22,572 nt of DNA. It comes from Gemmatimonadota bacterium. GTDB lineage: Bacteria; GCA-2686955. The position numbers and the translations under genes were made by a program. The notes beneath the pieces were generated by a model. The model was given only the letters and a program-made list of their open reading frames with translations, made no database searches and was not told the DNA's origin. The DNA lies in NCBI GenBank assembly GCA_002686955.1, contig NYZA01000224.1, positions 1 to 22,572 of the forward strand. The letters are read 5' to 3'. Positions 13,331-22,276 of the stretch are shown piece by piece; the stretch's first letter is position 1; every line of letters starts with the position of its first letter.

Positions 13331-13942
13331 ATGGCACCCCAAGACCGCTTCGTCGCGACCCATTCGCGAATCATCGACGCCGCGAAGACGCTTTTTCTCG
13401 AGCGCAATTTCGCTGATGTGACCATGGATCAAGTGGCCAACGCCGCGGAGGCCACGAAGGGAGCTCTCTACCACCACTTCAGCTCGAAGGAAGAGCTCTA
13501 CCTCGCCATGCTCCACGCCGACCTGGCCGAGAAAGAGGAGATCTTCCGCCGGGCGGTGGCGATGGAGGGGAGCTGCCGCGATCGTCTGGCGCGCCTCACG
13601 CTCGACTACTTCAACCTGCCGCACACGGCTCGCGAGGTGATCACCCTGGTCCGCCGCGACATCAACGTGTTCACCGGCGAGACCCGTGAGAGGCTGGTGC
13701 GTGCCTACCAGAGCGCACTGCCGGAGCAGGTCGAGGCGATACTGTCCGACGGCGTAGCCTCGGGTGAGCTGGAGGCCGCGGATCCCCGGCTCCTCTCCTG
13801 GTCCTTTGTGGCCTTGGTCGAGATCTCGTTGAGTCCCCATGCGGGCCGCGTGTTCCCCGTCGCCGCGGCCAAGGTCGACCACGTCCTCAACCTCTTTCTC
13901 AGCGGTGCGGCTTCTCGCCGCGGCGTCCTGCAACGAGCATGA
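13331..13942 (+). CDS. TetR/AcrR family transcriptional regulator
   Basis: A 203-aa TetR-fold repressor. Residues 10-60 form the DNA-binding domain: THSRIIDAAKTLFLERNF, then TMDQVANAAEATKGALYHHF with the canonical helix-turn-helix and 'YHHF' ending, then SSKEELY. The C-terminal 140 residues are the variable ligand-binding/dimerisation part, so the inducer is unknown; an acyl-CoA would fit the operon. ATG 13331 is preferred as a leaderless start; an in-frame ATG at 13319 inside the operator is possible. The stop overlaps the next ATG (ATGA at 13939-13942), so the repressor is the first gene of the operon it probably controls. Confidence 0.9.
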   Translation: MAPQDRFVATHSRIIDAAKTLFLERNFADVTMDQVANAAEATKGALYHHFSSKEELYLAMLHADLAEKEEIFRRAVAMEGSCRDRLARLTLDYFNLPHTAREVITLVRRDINVFTGETRERLVRAYQSALPEQVEAILSDGVASGELEAADPRLLSWSFVALVEISLSPHAGRVFPVAAAKVDHVLNLFLSGAASRRGVLQRA

Positions 13943-15105
13943 GCCAGAACCTATTCGATTCTTGGCGCGATCAGCCCCTCGAAGAGGTGCTTTATCAGTG
14001 TCGCGAGCTCTACGAGAATACCGACTTCCCCACGGTCAGAGCCTGGCGGGACAGGGGGGGGAAGGTGCTCGGCCATTTTCAAGTCTACTTTCCCGAAGAG
14101 ATCGTCCATGCGGCCGGCATACTTCCGGTCAAGCTGCGTGGCGGCAACATTCAGCCCGACAAGGCCGACTCCCGTTTCGGCAGCTATCTCTGTTCCATCA
14201 TCAAGACTTCGCTCGAGCTGGCACTTTCCGACAAGATCGAGCTCGACGCTTTCGTCACCCATCCGATATGCGACGCCGCCCGCAACCTCGGCGCCATCTG
14301 GGGACGCAACTACGACTACCCCTGCGAGATTCTCTATCTGCCGCAGAATCCGAACTCGGCGGCCTCGGCGGAGTATCTGCGAGGCGAGTACGATCGTCTC
14401 CAGCGAATGGTCGAGCGCGTGGCCGGTGCCGAGATCAACGACGAGGCGTTGCGCCATTCCATGGCGGTTTTCAATCGAAACCGCGCATTGATGCGCGAGC
14501 TCTACGAGATCAAGCGACAATCTCCGGAGAAGATCGCCGCCGAGGACGCCTATGCGCTCGTAGCCCTTGCCGGCATCTTGCCCCGGGAGGAGCACAACGA
14601 GCTGCTCGCCTACGTCCTGCCGATGATCCGGGAGAGCGCGGCCAAGCAGGAAGACCGCATTCGAATCGTCTTCGAAGGTGCGTTCTGCGAACAGCCTCCG
14701 TTCGATATGGTCCGCTCGATCGGCCGATCGGCCTATGTGGTCGACGACGACTTCATGATCGGTTTGCGCTGGATCCTCTCCGACGTGCCGCGGGGGCGGG
14801 ACCCGCTCCGAGATCTCGCCCTGTCCTACATCGAGGACTCTTCCTACAGCCCGGTGCAGCACGACCTGCGAAAGCGAAAGGAAGAGATGCTGGTCAGGCG
14901 CGTGCGCGCGGCCAACGCCGACGCCGTGATCGTCACCGCGGCGAAAATGTGCGAACCCGGCCTCGAGGAACAGGTCGCCTACATTCACGGGCTCGAGCGA
15001 GAGGGCATTCCCTTCTTCGTGAGTGAGTTCGAGGAGAATCAATCATCGTTCTCCGACCTCGAACTGCAGCTAGAGACTTTTATGGAGAACCTACTTTTCG
15101 CTTGA
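13939..15105 (+). CDS. 2-hydroxyacyl-CoA dehydratase / benzoyl-CoA reductase subunit, HgdB/BcrC/BzdN-like
   Basis: A 388-aa subunit of the D-component fold that carries an iron-sulfur cluster. Family features are YFPEEIVHAAGILPVKLRGG at about 50-69, a Cys in GSYLCSIIKTSLE (Cys85), THPICDAARN (Cys111), YPCEILYLPQNP (Cys129), FEGAFCEQPP and TAAKMCEPG near residue 337. HPIC and AKMC are probably among the cluster ligands. In the known complexes this subunit pairs with a second large subunit and receives electrons from an ATP-hydrolysing activator. Size and order match BzdN of the Azoarcus-type benzoyl-CoA reductase, but other substrates (2-hydroxyacyl-CoAs) are possible. A GAGG-type site in the 18-nt gap precedes the next subunit. 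Confidence 0.85.
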   Translation: MSQNLFDSWRDQPLEEVLYQCRELYENTDFPTVRAWRDRGGKVLGHFQVYFPEEIVHAAGILPVKLRGGNIQPDKADSRFGSYLCSIIKTSLELALSDKIELDAFVTHPICDAARNLGAIWGRNYDYPCEILYLPQNPNSAASAEYLRGEYDRLQRMVERVAGAEINDEALRHSMAVFNRNRALMRELYEIKRQSPEKIAAEDAYALVALAGILPREEHNELLAYVLPMIRESAAKQEDRIRIVFEGAFCEQPPFDMVRSIGRSAYVVDDDFMIGLRWILSDVPRGRDPLRDLALSYIEDSSYSPVQHDLRKRKEEMLVRRVRAANADAVIVTAAKMCEPGLEEQVAYIHGLEREGIPFFVSEFEENQSSFSDLELQLETFMENLLFA

Positions 15106-15123
15106 GACGGCGGAGGAAATGAC

Positions 15124-16416
15124 ATGACGAACCCGACACAGGCGATCGTCGGGCGCGGCAATCGCGAGGGCGCCGCGCTGTTCAGAGACTGGTTCAGCGG
15201 CCTTAACGAAGCGGCCGAGGAGGGACGTGGAGCAGCCTACGTCTTCGTGATGGGCAGCTTCAACGAGATACTCAAATCGTTCGATCTGCCGGTGGTCTTC
15301 CCAGAGATCAACTCGCTTCAGACGGCCGTTCGCCGCGTAGCCCACGAATACCTGGAAGAGGCGGAAGACCACGGCTACTCCCCTGATATTTGTGGCTACG
15401 TCAAGGCCGACATCGGCACGCAACTGCGCGGGGGCGCACATCCGATGGGGCGCATCCCCAAGCCTTCGATCGCCGTGGTCACCAACGCCTGCAACACTTA
15501 TCTCAAGTGGGCCGAAGCCTGGGAGCGCATGTACGAGATGCCGATGGTGACCATCGACATTCCCGGTACGCGTTACGCCGGCGGTGAAACCTGGAGCGGA
15601 GATCGCCATTTCGAGAACGACCGCAAGTACGTCGAAACACAGATTCGCGAGCTGATCAAGACCTGCGAAGAGGTTACCGGTAAGCGATTCGATATCGACA
15701 AACTGCGCGAAGTAATGGGGCACGCCAACGGAATCTCCCGCGGCTGGAAATCGCTCCTCGACCTGAACAAACATCGCCCGTCGGTGTTCAGCGCGCTGAC
15801 CGACGGCACCATCTACCTCGGAGTCGCCAATGGCCTACGTGGAGACGAGCGTGGAGCCAAGTACTTCGCCGACCTGGTCGAGGAGATGGAATTCAAGGTC
15901 GCCAACAAGATCGGCACGACGACGGAAGAGGAGTGGCGCCTCATCTTCGTTGGTGTTCCCTGCTACCCGATCTTCCGACGGTTCAACGAGCTTTTTACCG
16001 AGTGGAAGGGCACCTTCGTGCACTCCACCTATCTCTGGTTCGCCTCGGGTGGCTCGAATGTCGGATTCGAATACGAGCTGGCCGATCCGATCGCGAGTTT
16101 GGCTGAAGGGTCTCTGATCTCGGTACGCGACTCGATGGATTCGATGTTTCATCACGACCGCGTGGTCGAATCGATGCTCGATGGCTTTCACGTCGACGGC
16201 GTCGTCTATCACCCGATCAAGAGCTGCCGAACCGTCTCCACCGGGCTGGCCGATGGCCGCCGCGCGTTGGGGGAGCGCACCGGCGTGCAGAGCCTTTTCA
16301 TCGAATCGGACATGATGGATCGCCGGGTCGTGTCGGAAGCCCAGATGAAGAACCGTGCCGACGCCTTTTTCGAAGGGCTGGCCGTGCGTCGCAACCAGGA
16401 GCTCGTGTCCCAGTAG
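15124..16416 (+). CDS. 2-hydroxyacyl-CoA dehydratase / benzoyl-CoA reductase second subunit, BcrB/BzdO-like
   Basis: A 430-aa partner of the preceding subunit. Possible cluster ligands are Cys90 in DICGYVKADIG, Cys123 in NACNTYLKW and Cys368 in IKSCRTVSTGL, with the conserved pattern MVTIDIPGTR after the second Cys and FVGVPCYPIFRR in the middle. The C-terminal VVYHPIKSCRTVS is typical of BcrB/HgdA-type subunits. The heterodimer would hold the substrate between the two subunits next to the clusters. The GGAGGAAATGAC ribosome binding site in front of ATG 15124 is strong. The length and the following two activators match BzdO. The active substrate cannot be read from the sequence. Confidence 0.85.
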   Translation: MTNPTQAIVGRGNREGAALFRDWFSGLNEAAEEGRGAAYVFVMGSFNEILKSFDLPVVFPEINSLQTAVRRVAHEYLEEAEDHGYSPDICGYVKADIGTQLRGGAHPMGRIPKPSIAVVTNACNTYLKWAEAWERMYEMPMVTIDIPGTRYAGGETWSGDRHFENDRKYVETQIRELIKTCEEVTGKRFDIDKLREVMGHANGISRGWKSLLDLNKHRPSVFSALTDGTIYLGVANGLRGDERGAKYFADLVEEMEFKVANKIGTTTEEEWRLIFVGVPCYPIFRRFNELFTEWKGTFVHSTYLWFASGGSNVGFEYELADPIASLAEGSLISVRDSMDSMFHHDRVVESMLDGFHVDGVVYHPIKSCRTVSTGLADGRRALGERTGVQSLFIESDMMDRRVVSEAQMKNRADAFFEGLAVRRNQELVSQ

Positions 16417-16452
16417 CTTGTCCATCCGTCCACGACGAAGGAGACCTTCGCA

Positions 16453-17274
16453 ATGGCATACGCAGCAGGAGTGGATGTCGGTTCGACTCAGACCAAGGCC
16501 GTCGTCATCAACGAAGATCGCGAGCTCATCGCGACTTGTCTGATCGATACCGGCGCCAACGTCACCAAGGCCGCCGAGAACGCCTTCAGGGCCTGTATCG
16601 AGCAAGAAGGCATCCTAGAAGAAGAGATCGAATGGGTGATCGGCACCGGCTATGGACGCTACAAGGTGACTTTCGGCAACGCCCAGGTCACTGAAATCAG
16701 TTGTCATGGACGCGGCGCGACCCACATCTTCCCCGGCACGCGCACCGTGCTCGACATGGGTGGCCAAGACACCAAAGTCATTCGCGTTTCCCCCGATGGT
16801 GAAATCGAAGATTTCTGTATGAATGACAAATGCGCGGCAGGCACCGGACGATTCCTCGGCGCGTCGGCCTCAGCCCTCGACATTCCTCTCGACGATCTCG
16901 GTGCCACGGCGCTCGATTCCGATAAGGGTGTCGCGATCTCTACGACATGCACGGTGTTCGCCGAATCGGAAGTGCTCGCCTGGCTCGGAAAGGGCAAGAA
17001 GGTACAGGAGATCCTCTGGGGCGTGCACGAATCGATCGCCAAACGCTCGATCGGTCTGATGCGCCGCGTCGGCATCGAAGGAGAGATCACGTTCACCGGA
17101 GGAGTATCTCTCAACACGGCGATGGTCAAGGCGATGGAGGATGTGCTCGACACGAAGCTCAATATCTCAGAACAGTGTCACTACGCCGGCGCGTTAGGTG
17201 CGGCGCTCTTCGCCATGGACCATATTCAGGCGAGCCGTGCTCCTCACCCCATTGCCGAGGAGGTCGCCCAATGA
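16453..17274 (+). CDS. Acyl-CoA dehydratase activase / BCR ATPase subunit (BcrA/BadG family, first paralogue)
   Basis: A 273-aa ASKHA-fold ATPase with a bridging [4Fe-4S] cluster site. Phosphate-1 motif [13 protein letters not shown] at residues 6-18, phosphate-2 motif [11 protein letters not shown] at 100-110, adenosine motif [11 protein letters not shown], and the cluster cysteines Cys127 ([12 protein letters not shown]) and Cys166 ([12 protein letters not shown]) are all present. The family couples ATP hydrolysis to low-potential electron transfer. The ribosome binding site GAAGGAGACC precedes ATG 16453. The stop overlaps the start of its paralogue (ATGA at 17271-17274). The short length matches the Bzd-type small subunits. 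Confidence 0.9.
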
Positions 17275-18110
17275 GCATCACAGCGGGAATCGATGTCGGC
17301 TCGACCTATACAAAGACGGTTTTGCTCGATGCCGACAACAAGATCGTCGCCCGTCACCAGCTGAATACAGGATTCAAGCTGGCCGAGGTCGCGGAAAAGT
17401 GCTTTCAGGCATGCCTCGCCGAGGCCAGGCTCACGAGCGACGATATCGCCTACATCATCGCGACCGGCTATGGCCGTCACCAGGTCGCTTTCAAAGACCT
17501 GATAGTGACCGACATCACGGCCAGCGCGCGCGGTTGCCACCTTCTCTTCCCGGAAACCCGCACGGTGCTCGATGTCGGTGGTCAGACGATGAAGGCGATC
17601 CGCCTGGAGCCCGACGGCAAAGTCAAATCGTTCCGCCAAAACGACAAATGCGCGGCCGGCACCGGTGCTTTTCTTGAGAAGACGGCGCGATACATGGGGT
17701 ACGAAACCGACGATATCGGAGGCCTGCTCGACACCTCGCGCGATCCCGCCGAGATCTCCGGAGTGTGCGCGGTCTTCGCCGAATCGGAGGTCATCAACCA
17801 ACTCAGCCTCGGCACCCCACCCGCCGACATCATGCAGGGCGCCATCGAATCGCTGACCACCCGTGCGGTGCAGCTTATGAAGCGGGTCAAGGCCGAGCCG
17901 GGCCACACCTTGATCGGCGGCATCATGCGCTTCGGCACGATGTCGCGCGCTGTCGACAGCCGCATCAAGGACGACATCCAGCTCCCCGGTGGGGGCGAAG
18001 ACAGGGCCCTTCCGCAGTTCGTGACCGCGCTCGGGGCCGCATGGCTCGCGCACCATCGTCTGCGCAAACTGGCGGGCGAGGGCTCAACCCCCACCCCCGC
18101 AGCCGCATGA
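17271..18110 (+). CDS. Acyl-CoA dehydratase activase / BCR ATPase subunit (BcrD/BadF family, second paralogue)
   Basis: A 279-aa paralogue of the preceding ATPase, with [13 protein letters not shown] at 6-18 and the cluster cysteines Cys127 ([12 protein letters not shown]) and Cys166 ([12 protein letters not shown]) at exactly matching positions. Its phosphate-2 loop reads [10 protein letters not shown], so the family's GGQD Asp is Thr here, and the adenosine motif reads [10 protein letters not shown]. It would form a heterodimer with the first ATPase, giving an asymmetric electron donor as in benzoyl-CoA reductases. Overlaps of ATGA type on both sides place it firmly in the operon. It ends in a low-complexity tail of Pro, Thr and Ala. 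Confidence 0.9.
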
Positions 18111-18352
18111 CGGTCCCGACGAACGGCACCCCATCCCCGCCTCCGGCGAACCCCGATCTGATCGCGGCCGGTTGGGAGCGCCGGAGCATGGCCGCCCCAG
18201 ATCGCGCACGCGAGATGGCGGAGCGCTACGAGCTCTCCGGTTTCGAGGTCAAGCTGACGCCACTCGCGCCGCTCGATTTCGGTCCGGCCTGCACCCTCTG
18301 CCGAGAGTCGGCCTGCAAGGACCATGTGATGGTCTACACGCGCAAGCTCTAG
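18107..18352 (+). CDS. Small conserved Cys-containing protein at the end of the reductase operon
   Basis: An 81-aa protein, too short for a domain name. It starts by ATGA overlap with the second ATPase gene. After a Pro-rich lead of about 20 residues it reads AAGWERRSMAAPDRAREMAE, then YELSGFEVKLTPLAP, then CTLCRESACKDHVMVYTRKL. The GWERR/RA.E....Y...GFEV/C..C/YTRK pattern resembles small uncharacterised proteins I recall beside this type of operon. The three Cys (C-x2-C-x4-C) could hold a metal or Fe-S cluster, but a fourth ligand would be needed. Function unknown; a role in electron delivery or complex assembly is only a guess. Its stop TAG shares CTAG with the convergent minus-strand gene. 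Confidence 0.75.
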   Translation: MTVPTNGTPSPPPANPDLIAAGWERRSMAAPDRAREMAERYELSGFEVKLTPLAPLDFGPACTLCRESACKDHVMVYTRKL

Positions 18353-18675
18353 TCCCCCAACGCAACCCCCCTCCCGACCACACGCTCCCGCTCCACCCAT
18401 TCGTCCATCGAGGGCCGCGCATCTCCCCGAAGCTGCACCCGCCCCTCTTCCCCCAGCTCCACCACGCGGTGCAGCAGCATCCGCCCCCCAGCCCCTTCGT
18501 AGAGCACGACCTCCCCAACGATCGGACCCTCCTCTCCCAGCGGCGCCACTTTCACCCGCTCTCCATCGCGAATCGCCGGATGCATGCTGCGCCCCGACGC
18601 CAGAAACGAGAACTCACCGCCGGCGCCGAGCACCTGCCGCGCCAGCGCCCGCAGCTCATCGCGATCCAGGAACAC
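18349..18675 (-). CDS. S24/S26-type serine peptidase (SEC11-like active-site pattern), probably the leader protease of the peptide cluster
   Basis: A 108-aa protein. It has a GRSMHPAIRDGERV box with Ser30, GEVVLYEGAGGRMLLHRVVE with His69, and LRGDARPS with Asp85. These match the Ser/His/Asp arrangement of SEC11/SipW-type signal peptidases (S26), or less likely a LexA-type S24 domain with Lys. There is no membrane anchor, which is unusual for S26 and suggests a soluble cytoplasmic protease. GTG start at 18675, with GAGGAGAGG just upstream, 21 nt after the HPrK-like stop. As last gene of the peptide operon it is a natural candidate to remove the leader of the Cys-rich peptide. It may also be an inactive binding protein. 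Confidence 0.75.
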   Translation of the reverse strand: MFLDRDELRALARQVLGAGGEFSFLASGRSMHPAIRDGERVKVAPLGEEGPIVGEVVLYEGAGGRMLLHRVVELGEEGRVQLRGDARPSMDEWVERERVVGRGVALGD

Positions 18676-18696
18676 CGGCCTCTCCTCGCCCAGCGC

Positions 18697-19626
18697 TCAG
18701 CCCTCTTCCAGTCCCAGCGCCCCGACAACTCCCCGATCGGGCACGAAGCCGAAGCGCATCGGCGGACACAGTTCCACGATCCGCTCCACCAACTCCGCCG
18801 CCTGATCGAGCTGTTCCGGATCCCAGTAGGGCGGGAAGCTCCTGGCCATCAGCGTCGCCGCCGCCTCGGCCCCGCCGATCGCCCGGAACCGGTTCTTCTC
18901 AGCATGCTCCAGAAAGAGGATTCGTTCCAGCGGCGCCCCGCCTCCCGCGACCTTGTCCACATCTCCGTGCCACGGCGTTCCGAAGACCCACGGCACCCCG
19001 TCGATGATGCGCACCACGTTGCGATCATCGGAAAGAACCTCGAGACCGGCGATTCCGCTCTCCTCTTCCTGCATCTTCCCCCGATCCGACGCGTCGATCA
19101 GCACCTGGCTCAACGTGCTCTTTCCAACCCCCGACGTACCCGGAAAGAGCAAACCCCGCCCCCGCACCCGAACCGCGGTCGAATGCACGATCAATCCCAG
19201 CCCACGCGCGAGAAGCTGCCCGAAGAGCAGCTCATCGAGTGGATAGTCCAGCGCCGGCAGGCGATCGCCAAACCCTCCCGGCGGTGGATTCAGCCACAAA
19301 TCGACATGAGGCGGCACCGGCTCCGGCCCCTCGGGTATCCACGCCTGCGCATGCACCTCACCACCGAGATGCGGCGCCAGCACCGTCAGCTCGCGTCCTC
19401 CCCGCCCCCGGGTCAAACGCCACAAACGCGCCGACGAGAAGAGCAGCTCCCCCTCCCCCCGCTCCGGCGCCGGTCCCCGGTGCGCGCGGATCACTACATC
19501 AGCAACGCGCGCACCGATCTCGCACAGAAAGGGTAGGTGCGCGCGTGCGTGCCCAACCGGAGGCAACCCATCGTCCGCCGCGACCTCGACGCGCAGATCC
19601 GCGATCTCGAGGCCGACTACGTTCAG
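18697..19626 (-). CDS. HPr-kinase-like P-loop protein of the peptide cluster
   Basis: About 309 aa if started at CTG 19626, which overlaps the peptide gene's stop (CTGA), with GAGG seven nt upstream. The 20 codons between 19626 and the conventional TTG 19566 have strong third-position GC bias and read NVVGLEIADLRVEVAADDG, so translation probably begins there. The kinase part has Walker A FPGTSGVGKST at about 161-171, a Walker-B-like VLSDDRNVVR at about 197-206 and VFGTPWHGD at about 214-222, all as in HPr kinase/phosphorylase-like proteins of RiPP and PqqD loci. There is no HPr gene nearby, so the substrate is more likely the peptide, a partner protein or a cofactor. The N-terminal 140 residues are variable. 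The S24/S26-type gene follows. Confidence 0.82.
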   Translation of the reverse strand: MNVVGLEIADLRVEVAADDGLPPVGHARAHLPFLCEIGARVADVVIRAHRGPAPERGEGELLFSSARLWRLTRGRGGRELTVLAPHLGGEVHAQAWIPEGPEPVPPHVDLWLNPPPGGFGDRLPALDYPLDELLFGQLLARGLGLIVHSTAVRVRGRGLLFPGTSGVGKSTLSQVLIDASDRGKMQEEESGIAGLEVLSDDRNVVRIIDGVPWVFGTPWHGDVDKVAGGGAPLERILFLEHAEKNRFRAIGGAEAAATLMARSFPPYWDPEQLDQAAELVERIVELCPPMRFGFVPDRGVVGALGLEEG

Positions 19627-19811
19627 GTACCTGCCTCGGAACAGTTCACTGGTTGGCGAGAGAAGTCATTGCAGCCGGCGCCCCCGGAATTCGAGTGGGG
19701 CCCTGGGTTCTTCAATCGCTTGCACGCGGCCAGCACCGCTTCCTCGGCCACTAGATGCACCCGCCGAAGTTCCGGCTTCGTCCATCGAGGCTTGCTGTCA
19801 TTCTTGGCCAC
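19623..19811 (-). CDS. Candidate RiPP precursor peptide, 62 aa with three Cys
   Basis: GTG start at 19811, with AAAAAGGGTGA in front, 14 nt after the radical SAM stop; stop TGA 19623-19625 overlaps the HPrK-like start. The N-terminal half (residues 7-31) KPRWTKPELRRVHL, VAEEAVLAACK is Pro/Arg-rich then a short acidic helix ending in a Cys-Lys, as in a leader. The C-terminal half RLKNPGPHSNSGGAG, CNDFSRQPVN, CSEAGT is Gly/Ser/Asn-rich with Cys47 and Cys57, as in a core. No signal peptide or membrane segment. The KPEL....EEAVL..CK pattern resembles short peptides I recall beside radical SAM/SPASM and PqqD genes. Which residues are modified is not known. It could be a small protein instead, but position, size and composition favour a precursor. 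Confidence 0.72.
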   Translation of the reverse strand: MAKNDSKPRWTKPELRRVHLVAEEAVLAACKRLKNPGPHSNSGGAGCNDFSRQPVNCSEAGT

Positions 19812-19825
19812 GGTTCACCCTTTTT

Positions 19826-21028
19826 CTAGAGCCCAGGCATGGAGTGCACCGGTTGCAGCACCGGCGTTTCGGGCGGCGGCGGATCGACTCTTGGAGGGAT
19901 TCTCGGTACCTCAACTCGAGTGAAGGCTTTCGCGCGAGCTGTTGCGATGCTGTGTAGATAGTCCACGGTTGTCTCAGGGTCACCGTTTTCCATCTCCGCC
20001 ATCGCGGGACAGTTCCCGCAGAGCGAGATGAGGTCACAGTCCGTACAAGCATACTCTCGCGAGTAGAGCTTTGCACGCTCTATCGGCAGAGCGCGCTCCC
20101 AGCCTTCACGAAAGGTGCCTGTCGTCAGATCATAACCCGGTCTCTCGGACATGCCACACATAGTCAGGCGGCCATCCGCGGAGATGTTGAAGTTCACCAT
20201 CCCCGCCCCGCAGTGATAGAGCCGGTCGTCGGTGTTCTTGCGCTTGTCGAACTTGCACATGAACTCGACCCAGGCATCGACCCGCTCTTGATCCGACAGA
20301 TCCATGTCGAGCACCGCGCCGGGCGAGAGCCGCACAGCGAGCGGCGCGTGCCCCCCATCCTTCCTCGGATTGATCACCTGATCGAAGCGAAACTCGAGAC
20401 CGAGCGATTCCACCCAGTCCTTCATCTCGTCCATCTCGTGGTAGTTCAGCGTCGTCGCCACCCCCTTGAGCTCGAGTGGAACCCCCCTGCGCATCAACCG
20501 ATCGATCCCCTCGCGCGCCCGCCGGAACGAGCCCCGCTTCTGAGTCATCGTCTCGTAGACATCGCGGCTCTGCCCGTAGAGCGTGATCTCCACGGTGAAG
20601 GGCCGATACTCTGCGAGAAGGTCCGCGATCGCGTCGGTGACCATCGCCCCGTTCGTGAACACCGTCGTGATCAACCCGAGACGCTTGGCGTGCAGATAGA
20701 TCTCGGCGAAATCGGTGCGGATCAGCGGATCGCCCCCGGTCATCAACAGCCAAAGCGTGCCCGCCTCGGCAAGCTGATCGAGCACCCGCTTCACCTGGAC
20801 CGTACTCATCTCGCGTGGATCCGGTCCCGGCCCCGTGACAATGAAACAGTGGGCGCAGTCGTAGTTGCAGCGGTTGGTCAGCTCGAGGCTCCCGGCGATC
20901 GGAACCCGGTCGCGCATCACCCGTTCGTGGATCCCGCGCGAGAAATCCAGATAAGACACCGCCGGCACGACCGAGGGCCCCACCTCGTGTCCGGTGGTGC
21001 TTCGGTGGGGATCGACTGAGCAGTTCAT
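19826..21028 (-). CDS. Radical SAM/SPASM peptide-modifying enzyme
   Basis: A 400-aa radical SAM protein. The SAM-cluster motif is CNYDCAHC with Cys54, Cys58 and Cys61; MTGGDPLIRTDF at about 96-107 is the GGEP-like SAM-binding motif. The C-terminal SPASM domain carries Cys258, Cys273, Cys291, Cys328, Cys331, Cys337 and Cys340 (YHCGAG, CGM, CTDCDLISLCGNCPA), enough for two auxiliary Fe-S clusters. Such enzymes form thioether, C-C or other crosslinks in RiPP precursors such as PqqA, sactipeptides and mycofactocin. ATG 21028 is used; the frame to 21100 would overlap the GNAT-like gene by 47 nt. The last 25 residues are Pro-rich. The candidate substrate gene lies 14 nt downstream. Confidence 0.9.
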   Translation of the reverse strand: MNCSVDPHRSTTGHEVGPSVVPAVSYLDFSRGIHERVMRDRVPIAGSLELTNRCNYDCAHCFIVTGPGPDPREMSTVQVKRVLDQLAEAGTLWLLMTGGDPLIRTDFAEIYLHAKRLGLITTVFTNGAMVTDAIADLLAEYRPFTVEITLYGQSRDVYETMTQKRGSFRRAREGIDRLMRRGVPLELKGVATTLNYHEMDEMKDWVESLGLEFRFDQVINPRKDGGHAPLAVRLSPGAVLDMDLSDQERVDAWVEFMCKFDKRKNTDDRLYHCGAGMVNFNISADGRLTMCGMSERPGYDLTTGTFREGWERALPIERAKLYSREYACTDCDLISLCGNCPAMAEMENGDPETTVDYLHSIATARAKAFTRVEVPRIPPRVDPPPPETPVLQPVHSMPGL

Positions 21029-21053
21029 CGGCCTCGAGTCCAGACGCGGCGCG

Positions 21054-21962
21054 TCAAAGCGTGACCCAACCGGGAAGCTCCCAGAGCCCCCCATTGCCAA
21101 GGTAGTCCAGATCGAAGCTCCGCGTACCCTCGTTCAGCACCAACACCGGACCGGGATCCCAATCCGGAGCCGGCCTGGCCCCGGCCTGGATCAGCGCGGC
21201 GGCACGCGGTCCATCGAGAACGGGGACCAACACCGACGATGCGCGCTGCCGCCGAGCCTCATGCCTGAGCTGCGCCACCGCGTCGTCCAGATCCCCTCGA
21301 TCGGCCGCCAAGTCCAACACCATCAACACATTCTTCCCCTCGATCTCGTGAATCGCCAACAGCAGCCCGGCGCCGCCGCGAATCAGAAGACGTGGAGCAT
21401 TCGATTCCGTCCCATTTCCGCCCCTCCACGCCGCACGCGGCGCTCCCCGATCGACCGAAATGGGAAAATCATCCGGGGGACGGAACCGCGCGCCCTCTTC
21501 GATCTGAGACCATGCCGACGCATCGCGCCAGCGGCGGCGCGGCGAAAAGGCGAGAAAGCGCAATCGCCTCAACGAACGAAAGCGGGAACCGGCCACTCTC
21601 TCCCACAGCCGTGCCGCCCGATCGTTCGCCAAACCGAAGAAGAGAGCCGGCTCCGCCAAAATGCGACGCATCAGAAGCGGCGCCCGCCCCTTGCCGGTGT
21701 CGTCGACCAGCAAACGCTGAATCTGCCACGCCTCGACCGATTCGCCATCGACGAGCAGATCGACCCGCCGAGCAGCCACCATGCCATGCACCGATTCGCC
21801 CCGCGCCAGCAACCGGATACGGGCCCGCCCCCCGTCGAAATCGTCGCGCCAGCCGCGCACCACTTCGAGGGCTGCCTCCGTCGATCCCACCCCTTCCGCC
21901 AGGCACTCCGCCCACGCGCGATCCGCCACATCGGGCGGCTCGACCACCTTCAATGCGCTCAC
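21054..21962 (-). CDS. GNAT-like acyltransferase, possibly two-domain, in the peptide cluster
   Basis: A 302-aa protein. Residues 45-130 look like a GNAT domain: RARIRLLARGESVHGMVAAR, a strand QIQRLLVDDTGKGRAPLLMR at about 80-100 where the (Q/R)xxGxG/A acetyl-CoA loop lies, and FFGLANDRAARLWERVAG at about 108-125, the usual 'N-xx-A-xx-L(Y/W)' ending. A second less clear alpha/beta part at about 190-290 ends GGLWELPGWVTL. The protein could acylate the peptide or a small molecule; it may also only bind. GTG start at 21962 overlaps the stop of the PqqD-like gene. It lies 25 nt upstream of the radical SAM gene. I considered nucleotidyltransferase and rejected it because the Gly-Ser and Asp-x-Asp motifs are missing. 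Confidence 0.6.
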   Translation of the reverse strand: MSALKVVEPPDVADRAWAECLAEGVGSTEAALEVVRGWRDDFDGGRARIRLLARGESVHGMVAARRVDLLVDGESVEAWQIQRLLVDDTGKGRAPLLMRRILAEPALFFGLANDRAARLWERVAGSRFRSLRRLRFLAFSPRRRWRDASAWSQIEEGARFRPPDDFPISVDRGAPRAAWRGGNGTESNAPRLLIRGGAGLLLAIHEIEGKNVLMVLDLAADRGDLDDAVAQLRHEARRQRASSVLVPVLDGPRAAALIQAGARPAPDWDPGPVLVLNEGTRSFDLDYLGNGGLWELPGWVTL

Positions 21963-22276
21963 TCCGGGTCCGGTTCGACCCCGTCGAGAACGACCGCTCC
22001 CACCGCCTCGAGCTCACCCAAGACCCGGCCGACATCCTCCACGAGCTCTTCCCGGCCCGCCTCGTAGCTCCGTCGCGCCATCTCCACGAGCTCCTCGCCC
22101 GATCGCAGCTCTTCGAGCGCGTCCCAGAGGAAGCCGGCCGTCTCGTTGAGCGTGAAGATCCAGTCCTTGTCCCCGACCGAACGGTGAATCGGAATCAAGA
22201 GACGCTCGCCCGCGATCGATCGGGTCACGATCATGGGGTTGCGTTGGTATCGGCGTTCGAGCCAGGGTGTTTCCAT
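21959..22276 (-). CDS. PqqD-like peptide chaperone (RiPP recognition element)
   Basis: A 105-aa PqqD-fold protein. Residues 14-50 read PMIVTRSIAGERLLIPIHRS, then IFTLNETAGFLWDAL, the core beta-strands plus helix of PqqD/RRE domains, followed by helices EELVEMARRSYEAG and LVEDVGRVLGELEAVGAVVL. PqqD-like proteins bind the leader of a RiPP precursor and present it to the partner radical SAM enzyme. ATG 22276; no gene is seen directly upstream on this strand, so it is likely the first gene of the operon. The stop TGA overlaps the GNAT-like start GTG (GTGA at 21959-21962). Confidence 0.88.
   Translation of the reverse strand: METPWLERRYQRNPMIVTRSIAGERLLIPIHRSVGDKDWIFTLNETAGFLWDALEELRSGEELVEMARRSYEAGREELVEDVGRVLGELEAVGAVVLDGVEPDPE

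Follow-up and report, generated by a model that had tools for sequence, protein, structure and literature searches.

The window analysed here is a stretch of 22,572 nucleotides that makes up one entire contig in the draft genome of a Gemmatimonadota bacterium (4.28 Mb in 270 contigs, 84.5% complete). The ORF listing of the window contains six tightly spaced ORFs on the minus strand at 18349-22276, and every ORF, overlap and short gap described there by the original prediction, which was made from the sequence alone, was recovered. From upstream to downstream, the genes code for a PqqD-like protein, a 302-aa protein, a radical SAM/SPASM protein, a 62-aa peptide, an HPrK-like protein and an S26-like peptidase. 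The first two genes share a GTGA overlap, gaps of 25 nt and 14 nt precede the radical SAM and the peptide genes, respectively, a CTGA overlap joins the peptide gene to the HPrK-like gene, and a 21-nt gap separates the latter from the S26-like gene. The HPrK-like gene was given a CTG start; the first ordinary start codon, a TTG at 19566, would remove about 20 N-terminal residues that can be aligned in homologues. Only 296 nt separate the PqqD start from the contig end upstream of it. Downstream of the operon, a small convergent ORF overlaps the peptidase gene by 4 nt; as named by sequence reading, it lies at the end of a cluster (13939-18352) of 2-hydroxyacyl-CoA dehydratase/benzoyl-CoA reductase-like subunits and two activator ATPases that converges on the operon.

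None of the six operon proteins reached an NCBIfam cut-off among the matches listed. The first product (21959..22276, minus strand) matches Pfam PqqD at 2.8e-12, above the cut-off, in agreement with the predicted PqqD fold, and would act as a discrete RRE (RiPP recognition element), binding the leader of a modified, ribosomally made peptide (RiPP). The radical SAM/SPASM protein (19826..21028, minus strand), the putative maturase, likewise exceeds the Pfam cut-off (Radical_SAM, 5e-23) and carries a CxxxCxxC motif that is invariant among 60 copies from the cassettes described below. Six of the seven SPASM cysteines are present; the last one, kept in 55 of the 60 copies, is a His in the window enzyme and in that of locus L139. 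The best NCBIfam partial match of the enzyme is the mycofactocin maturase (1.1e-29, below cut-off). The protein encoded between these two (21054..21962, minus strand) is GNAT-like by eye (LVDDTGKGRAPLLMRRIL ... GLANDRAARLWERV). It has no match in Pfam, NCBIfam or the PDB, its single-sequence AF2 model (pLDDT 36) is too poor for fold use, and no homologue was found in the other loci scanned. It is possibly an accessory acyltransferase and would be an addition specific to this lineage.

Relatives of the radical SAM enzyme were gathered with their flanks, and each locus was scanned with profiles of every part. Radical SAM, PqqD, precursor, kinase and peptidase genes were all found within 6.5 kb in 39/66 loci, and the radical SAM, precursor and kinase genes occur together in 56/66; these 66 radical-SAM loci were picked by radical SAM similarity and include close relatives as well as loci truncated by contig ends. 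The peptidase is not nearby in 17 loci bearing precursor and kinase, and a nearby precursor or kinase is absent in 10/66 loci, some of them truncated at contig ends and some distant outgroups. Most loci have a PqqD homologue next to the radical SAM gene, and the precursor gene mostly lies with the radical SAM gene on one side and the kinase gene on the other. The hosts are Chloroflexota, Acidobacteriota, Planctomycetota, a deltaproteobacterium and rare phyla, and at least five little-studied bacterial groups carry the gene set; the radical SAM relatives in other phyla are 31-44% identical to the window enzyme. Among the 327 Acidobacteriota genomes sampled, the radical SAM search at E <= 1e-90 located the cassette in 37. 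Five genes of the proposed six-gene set are therefore conserved as a cassette, whereas the GNAT-like gene is so far private to the window genome.

Variants of the cassette were also observed. Three Aminicenantes-type loci have three radical SAM domains each, and in these an HPrK-like kinase domain and a radical SAM domain are joined in a single protein (L150 10617-12662, L151 9660-11654, L152 10224-12179). Reading by eye, we noted that the cassette of genome G039 contains an additional radical SAM-like ORF alongside a methyltransferase-like gene (L021 5233-6360 and 8523-9674), and that a nucleotidyltransferase-like gene recurs near 12 loci (e.g. L147 5253-6476). The largest cluster of neighbouring ORFs was discounted, as it is antisense to the radical SAM gene.

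The 62-aa peptide (19623..19811, minus strand), which has no Pfam match, belongs to a family found in 56 loci and is the candidate precursor; it reads MAKNDSKPRWTKPELRRVHLVAEEA up to the predicted cleavage site and VLAACKRLKNPGPHSNSGGAGCNDFSRQPVNCSEAGT beyond it. The leaders of 56 unique precursors follow the consensus [KR][KR]x[YW]xxPx[LVI]xxVxLxxEEAVLxxCK. The [YW]xxP motif is present in 55 of them (WTKP in the window, 19773..19784, minus strand), and the first Cys follows the Y/W at a distance of 20 in 45/56 precursors and of 19-21 in every one. Motifs of this type bind RREs in lasso leaders and in those of linear polyphosphorylated peptides (LPP) (PMC13381572). Two Cys are invariant across the alignment (A5) and a third nearly so, and the mean pairwise identity is 0.36 in the leader vs 0.20 over the 10 residues following that first Cys. 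The predicted core of the window peptide (19626..19736, minus strand) has three Cys and a C-terminal Thr; across the family, predicted cores comprise 24-46 residues and vary in sequence between clades. Ser is the C-terminal residue in 47 and Thr in 5 of the 56 precursors (52/56 Ser/Thr). Against a Ser frequency of 9.4%, the excess of C-terminal Ser has a binomial P of ~1e-39, a value that assumes independent sequences, which these are not. A lipobox reading of the 'VLxxC' segment was dropped, since position -1 can hold F, N, L or V, and a signal peptide is not evident.

The E-values of the precursor HMM used in the locus scan derive from an iterated profile; independent retrieval was obtained in four genomes (G043, G060, G061 and G062), whose precursors were found with an A5 profile not containing them. 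The check suggested with the original prediction, a comparison of homologous loci and of their peptides, came out in its favour: the small peptide is kept, its leader is conserved and its core is more variable. A genetically encoded precursor with these properties, lying beside modifying enzymes, is what RiPPs in general are recognised by.

The P-loop protein encoded at 18697..19626 (minus strand) has a weak Pfam match to HPrK, below the cut-off. An AlphaFold model built from 8 homologues reached a pLDDT of 85, and the best Foldseek matches of this model were ATP-PEPCK and HPrK/P, which supports the kinase-like fold expected of an HPrK-like protein. A His and the P-loop Lys are invariant across 44 homologues. 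Lasso clusters encode HPrK-like kinases that phosphorylate the precursor at its C-terminal Ser and depend on a His-Lys-Asp-Asp set (PMC9266682); the same set is found in the window kinase (VHST ... GTSGVGKST ... SDDR). An Anaerolineaceae clade (6 loci, SH-aLRT 99) is the only one largely without C-terminal Ser: this residue ends 0/6 precursors, two end in Thr, and in the kinases GED(Q/T) replaces xD[DE]R. As these loci form one clade on the tree, the correlation between kinase motif and precursor C-terminus amounts to one evolutionary event.

The last gene (18349..18675, minus strand) encodes a soluble protein with Ser30/His69/Asp85, the predicted leader peptidase. Its Pfam match to S24 is weak and below cut-off, while a profile built from 33 family peptidases matches SEC11C, of the SEC11 signal-peptidase subunits, at 2e-14; in 33 homologues His, Arg, Gly and Asp are invariant, and Ser is nearly so. 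Of the S24/S26 Ser/His/Asp protease originally proposed, the S26 part holds, in its archaeal/eukaryotic signal-peptidase type (SEC11, SipW), but the S24/LexA-type identity was rejected, the family profile favouring SEC11/SipW. A characterised parallel is LppS of the LPP pathway, with the catalytic triad S29/H68/D93 (PMC13381572).

Taking these parts together, we hold with considerable confidence that the operon is a RiPP pathway with the 62-aa peptide as substrate, and it is quite likely that its genes form a biosynthetic pathway with the following predicted order of steps. The PqqD-like RRE would bind the precursor via [YW]xxP and hand it on for modification of the core by the radical SAM/SPASM enzyme. 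Cys-based cross-links are favoured because the Cys are conserved, thioether or other radical cross-links at these residues being the most likely products; that radical SAM chemistry takes place on the precursor Cys at all is slightly short of an even bet. The HPrK-like kinase would phosphorylate the conserved C-terminal Ser/Thr, and by analogy with the lasso kinases we lean towards this assignment. The soluble SipW/SEC11-type peptidase would then cut off the leader, a role that is probable by analogy with LppS. The cut would probably fall just after the Ala of 'EEA', some 15 residues beyond the Y/W, as placed by an LPP-like register in which cleavage separates FET from AQS; Ala occupies this position in 32/56 precursors. 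The undescribed RiPP pathway proposed at the outset, with the peptide as substrate, a trimming protease and a kinase adding a group, was thus borne out in its conservation, and its chemistry is a prediction made concrete in two places, a C-terminal phospho-Ser and the leader cut site.

When whole genomes were searched with the A5 profile, G043 turned out to carry ten precursor genes, G061 five, G060 three and G062 two. The G043 copies (L173-L179) have an almost identical core, CKSDTGAGPNQSTCIIPQCFNPGS, and one maturation locus serves the ten scattered genes. For eight of these ten, a gene no more than 263 nt upstream on the same strand codes for a secreted protein, and these proteins have a C-terminal domain in common; as G043 has 27 genes with this domain in 3.6 Mb, the naive P is ~1e-14, which ignores a possible duplication of the gene pair as a unit. 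Taking G043 and G060-G062 (L180-L188) together, most of the scattered precursor genes come right after secreted-protein genes of this kind. The shared domain, which is FnIII-like, recurs in Chloroflexota and Acidobacteriota in large ORFs that neighbour the cassette; several of the large ORFs with this domain are Peptidase_C25 proteins. A C25 (gingipain-like) gene is present in 35/45 cassette genomes, and in 27/45 such a gene is no more than about 12 kb away from the radical SAM gene (large Peptidase_C25 genes at, e.g., L125, L127, L138, L124 and L013). Comparing cassette with cassette-free genomes, C25 was present in 12/14 vs 1/14 Chloroflexota (Fisher P 7e-5) and in 21/28 vs 8/20 Acidobacteriota (Fisher P 0.02), both values uncorrected for kinship. 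In the window genome a link between C25 and the cassette was not found; the only C25 gene detected there (contig C29), with a T9SS-type C-terminus by eye, lies beside a PorV-like gene. Any function drawn from the links to secreted proteins is speculation. They point to a role other than antibiosis, and we tentatively suggest, as a possibility with the odds against it, that the modified peptide is a dedicated partner of large secreted proteins (C25 gingipain/PorU-like, FnIII-like), perhaps a linker, anchor or activator that they recognise or to which it is attached, and not an antibiotic.

These links also bear on a reading that we consider improbable, in which the mature peptide would be an intracellular cofactor or signal like PQQ or mycofactocin and not an exported product. 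The partial match to the mycofactocin maturase, the nearly invariant G043 cores and the lack of a visible exporter in the window agree with it, but cores of 24-46 residues that vary across clades, and the gene links to secreted proteins, do not. Similarly doubtful is that the operon is a member, or a precursor-bearing relative, of SynChlorMet (Scm; NCBIfam TIGR04248-TIGR04251), where PqqD-like, HPrK-like and SPASM proteins occur in one cassette. Models for ScmC, ScmD, ScmE and ScmF are among the partial matches, and the several radical SAM genes and kinase-radical SAM fusion of the Aminicenantes branch speak for it; however, every score is far below its curated cut-off: ScmC scores 18.6 of 125 in the window and 45 of 125 at best, ScmE scores 79 of 400 in the window, and the window operon has one radical SAM gene where Scm, by model names, has two. 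Membership was rejected on the curated cut-offs of the four models, in a comparison by model scores.

A plain LPP or phospho-lasso-like pathway, with phosphorylation as the primary modification and the radical SAM enzyme as secondary tailoring, is unlikely, if less far-fetched. LPP, reported in 2026 and described only from Bacillota, are made by lpp genes A, K, B, S, D and N, which include a discrete RRE, an HprK-like kinase and a SipW-like leader peptidase; the precursor has the motif YxxPxVLxHQxIxFETxxS, its RRE-presented leader is cut by LppS, a SipW-like S/H/D peptidase, and phosphorylation, which is kinase-dependent, occurs at core Ser3 (PMC13381572). The window set has the same trio and a [YW]xxP leader, and the nucleotidyltransferase-like gene near 12 loci recalls the NTP transferase found in clusters for LPP and lasso peptides. 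On the other hand, the window family has the precursor consensus [YW]xxP..V.L..EEAVLxxCK and a different predicted phosphorylation site, and phosphorylation leaves its conserved Cys unexplained. The asparagine-synthetase-like cyclase and B2 protease of lasso pathways are absent among the six operon proteins (Pfam/NCBIfam), the other window ORFs having been read by eye. Finally, an LPP pathway would be expected to have no further primary modifying enzyme in its core gene set; it has no radical SAM enzyme, and the LPP paper makes no mention of one (PMC13381572), whereas a radical SAM/SPASM gene lies in the operon and in its relatives, a presence partly built in because the search began from radical SAM.

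We therefore retain the reading of a RiPP pathway that includes a SPASM maturase, and compare it with the remaining known systems. Sactipeptides and ranthipeptides share the SPASM enzyme and a Cys core; in the window thioethers are predicted only, and no maturase model matched above cut-off. PQQ and mycofactocin share a PqqD-type chaperone and a SPASM enzyme acting on a small peptide (PqqD with PqqE; MftC), but the precursor differs and, to our knowledge, neither system has an HPrK-like kinase or a SipW-type peptidase. Our search of open-access papers returned no description of a set of radical SAM, HPr kinase and PqqD, and none of the curated families names the five-gene set. If the proposed pathway is true, it would be a RiPP class in which radical chemistry and phosphorylation are joined with a leader protease of the signal-peptidase type, and would extend SipW-type leader peptidases well beyond Bacillota. 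Kinase-tailored lasso peptides of the paeninodin/ThcoK type (PMC9266682) have the same PqqD-type B1, [YW]xxPx[LVI] leader, HPrK-like kinase and C-terminal Ser, but use a macrolactam cyclase and a B2 cysteine protease where the window operon has a radical SAM enzyme. The original claim that no characterised pathway has this combination thus needs qualifying, since the trio of RRE, kinase and SipW-like peptidase is characterised in LPP; what appears new, judged from the genes, is the combination of this trio with a radical SAM enzyme of the SPASM type and a three-Cys, Ser/Thr-ending precursor, which on our reading would be a new RiPP class built from LPP and lasso parts plus a SPASM maturase.
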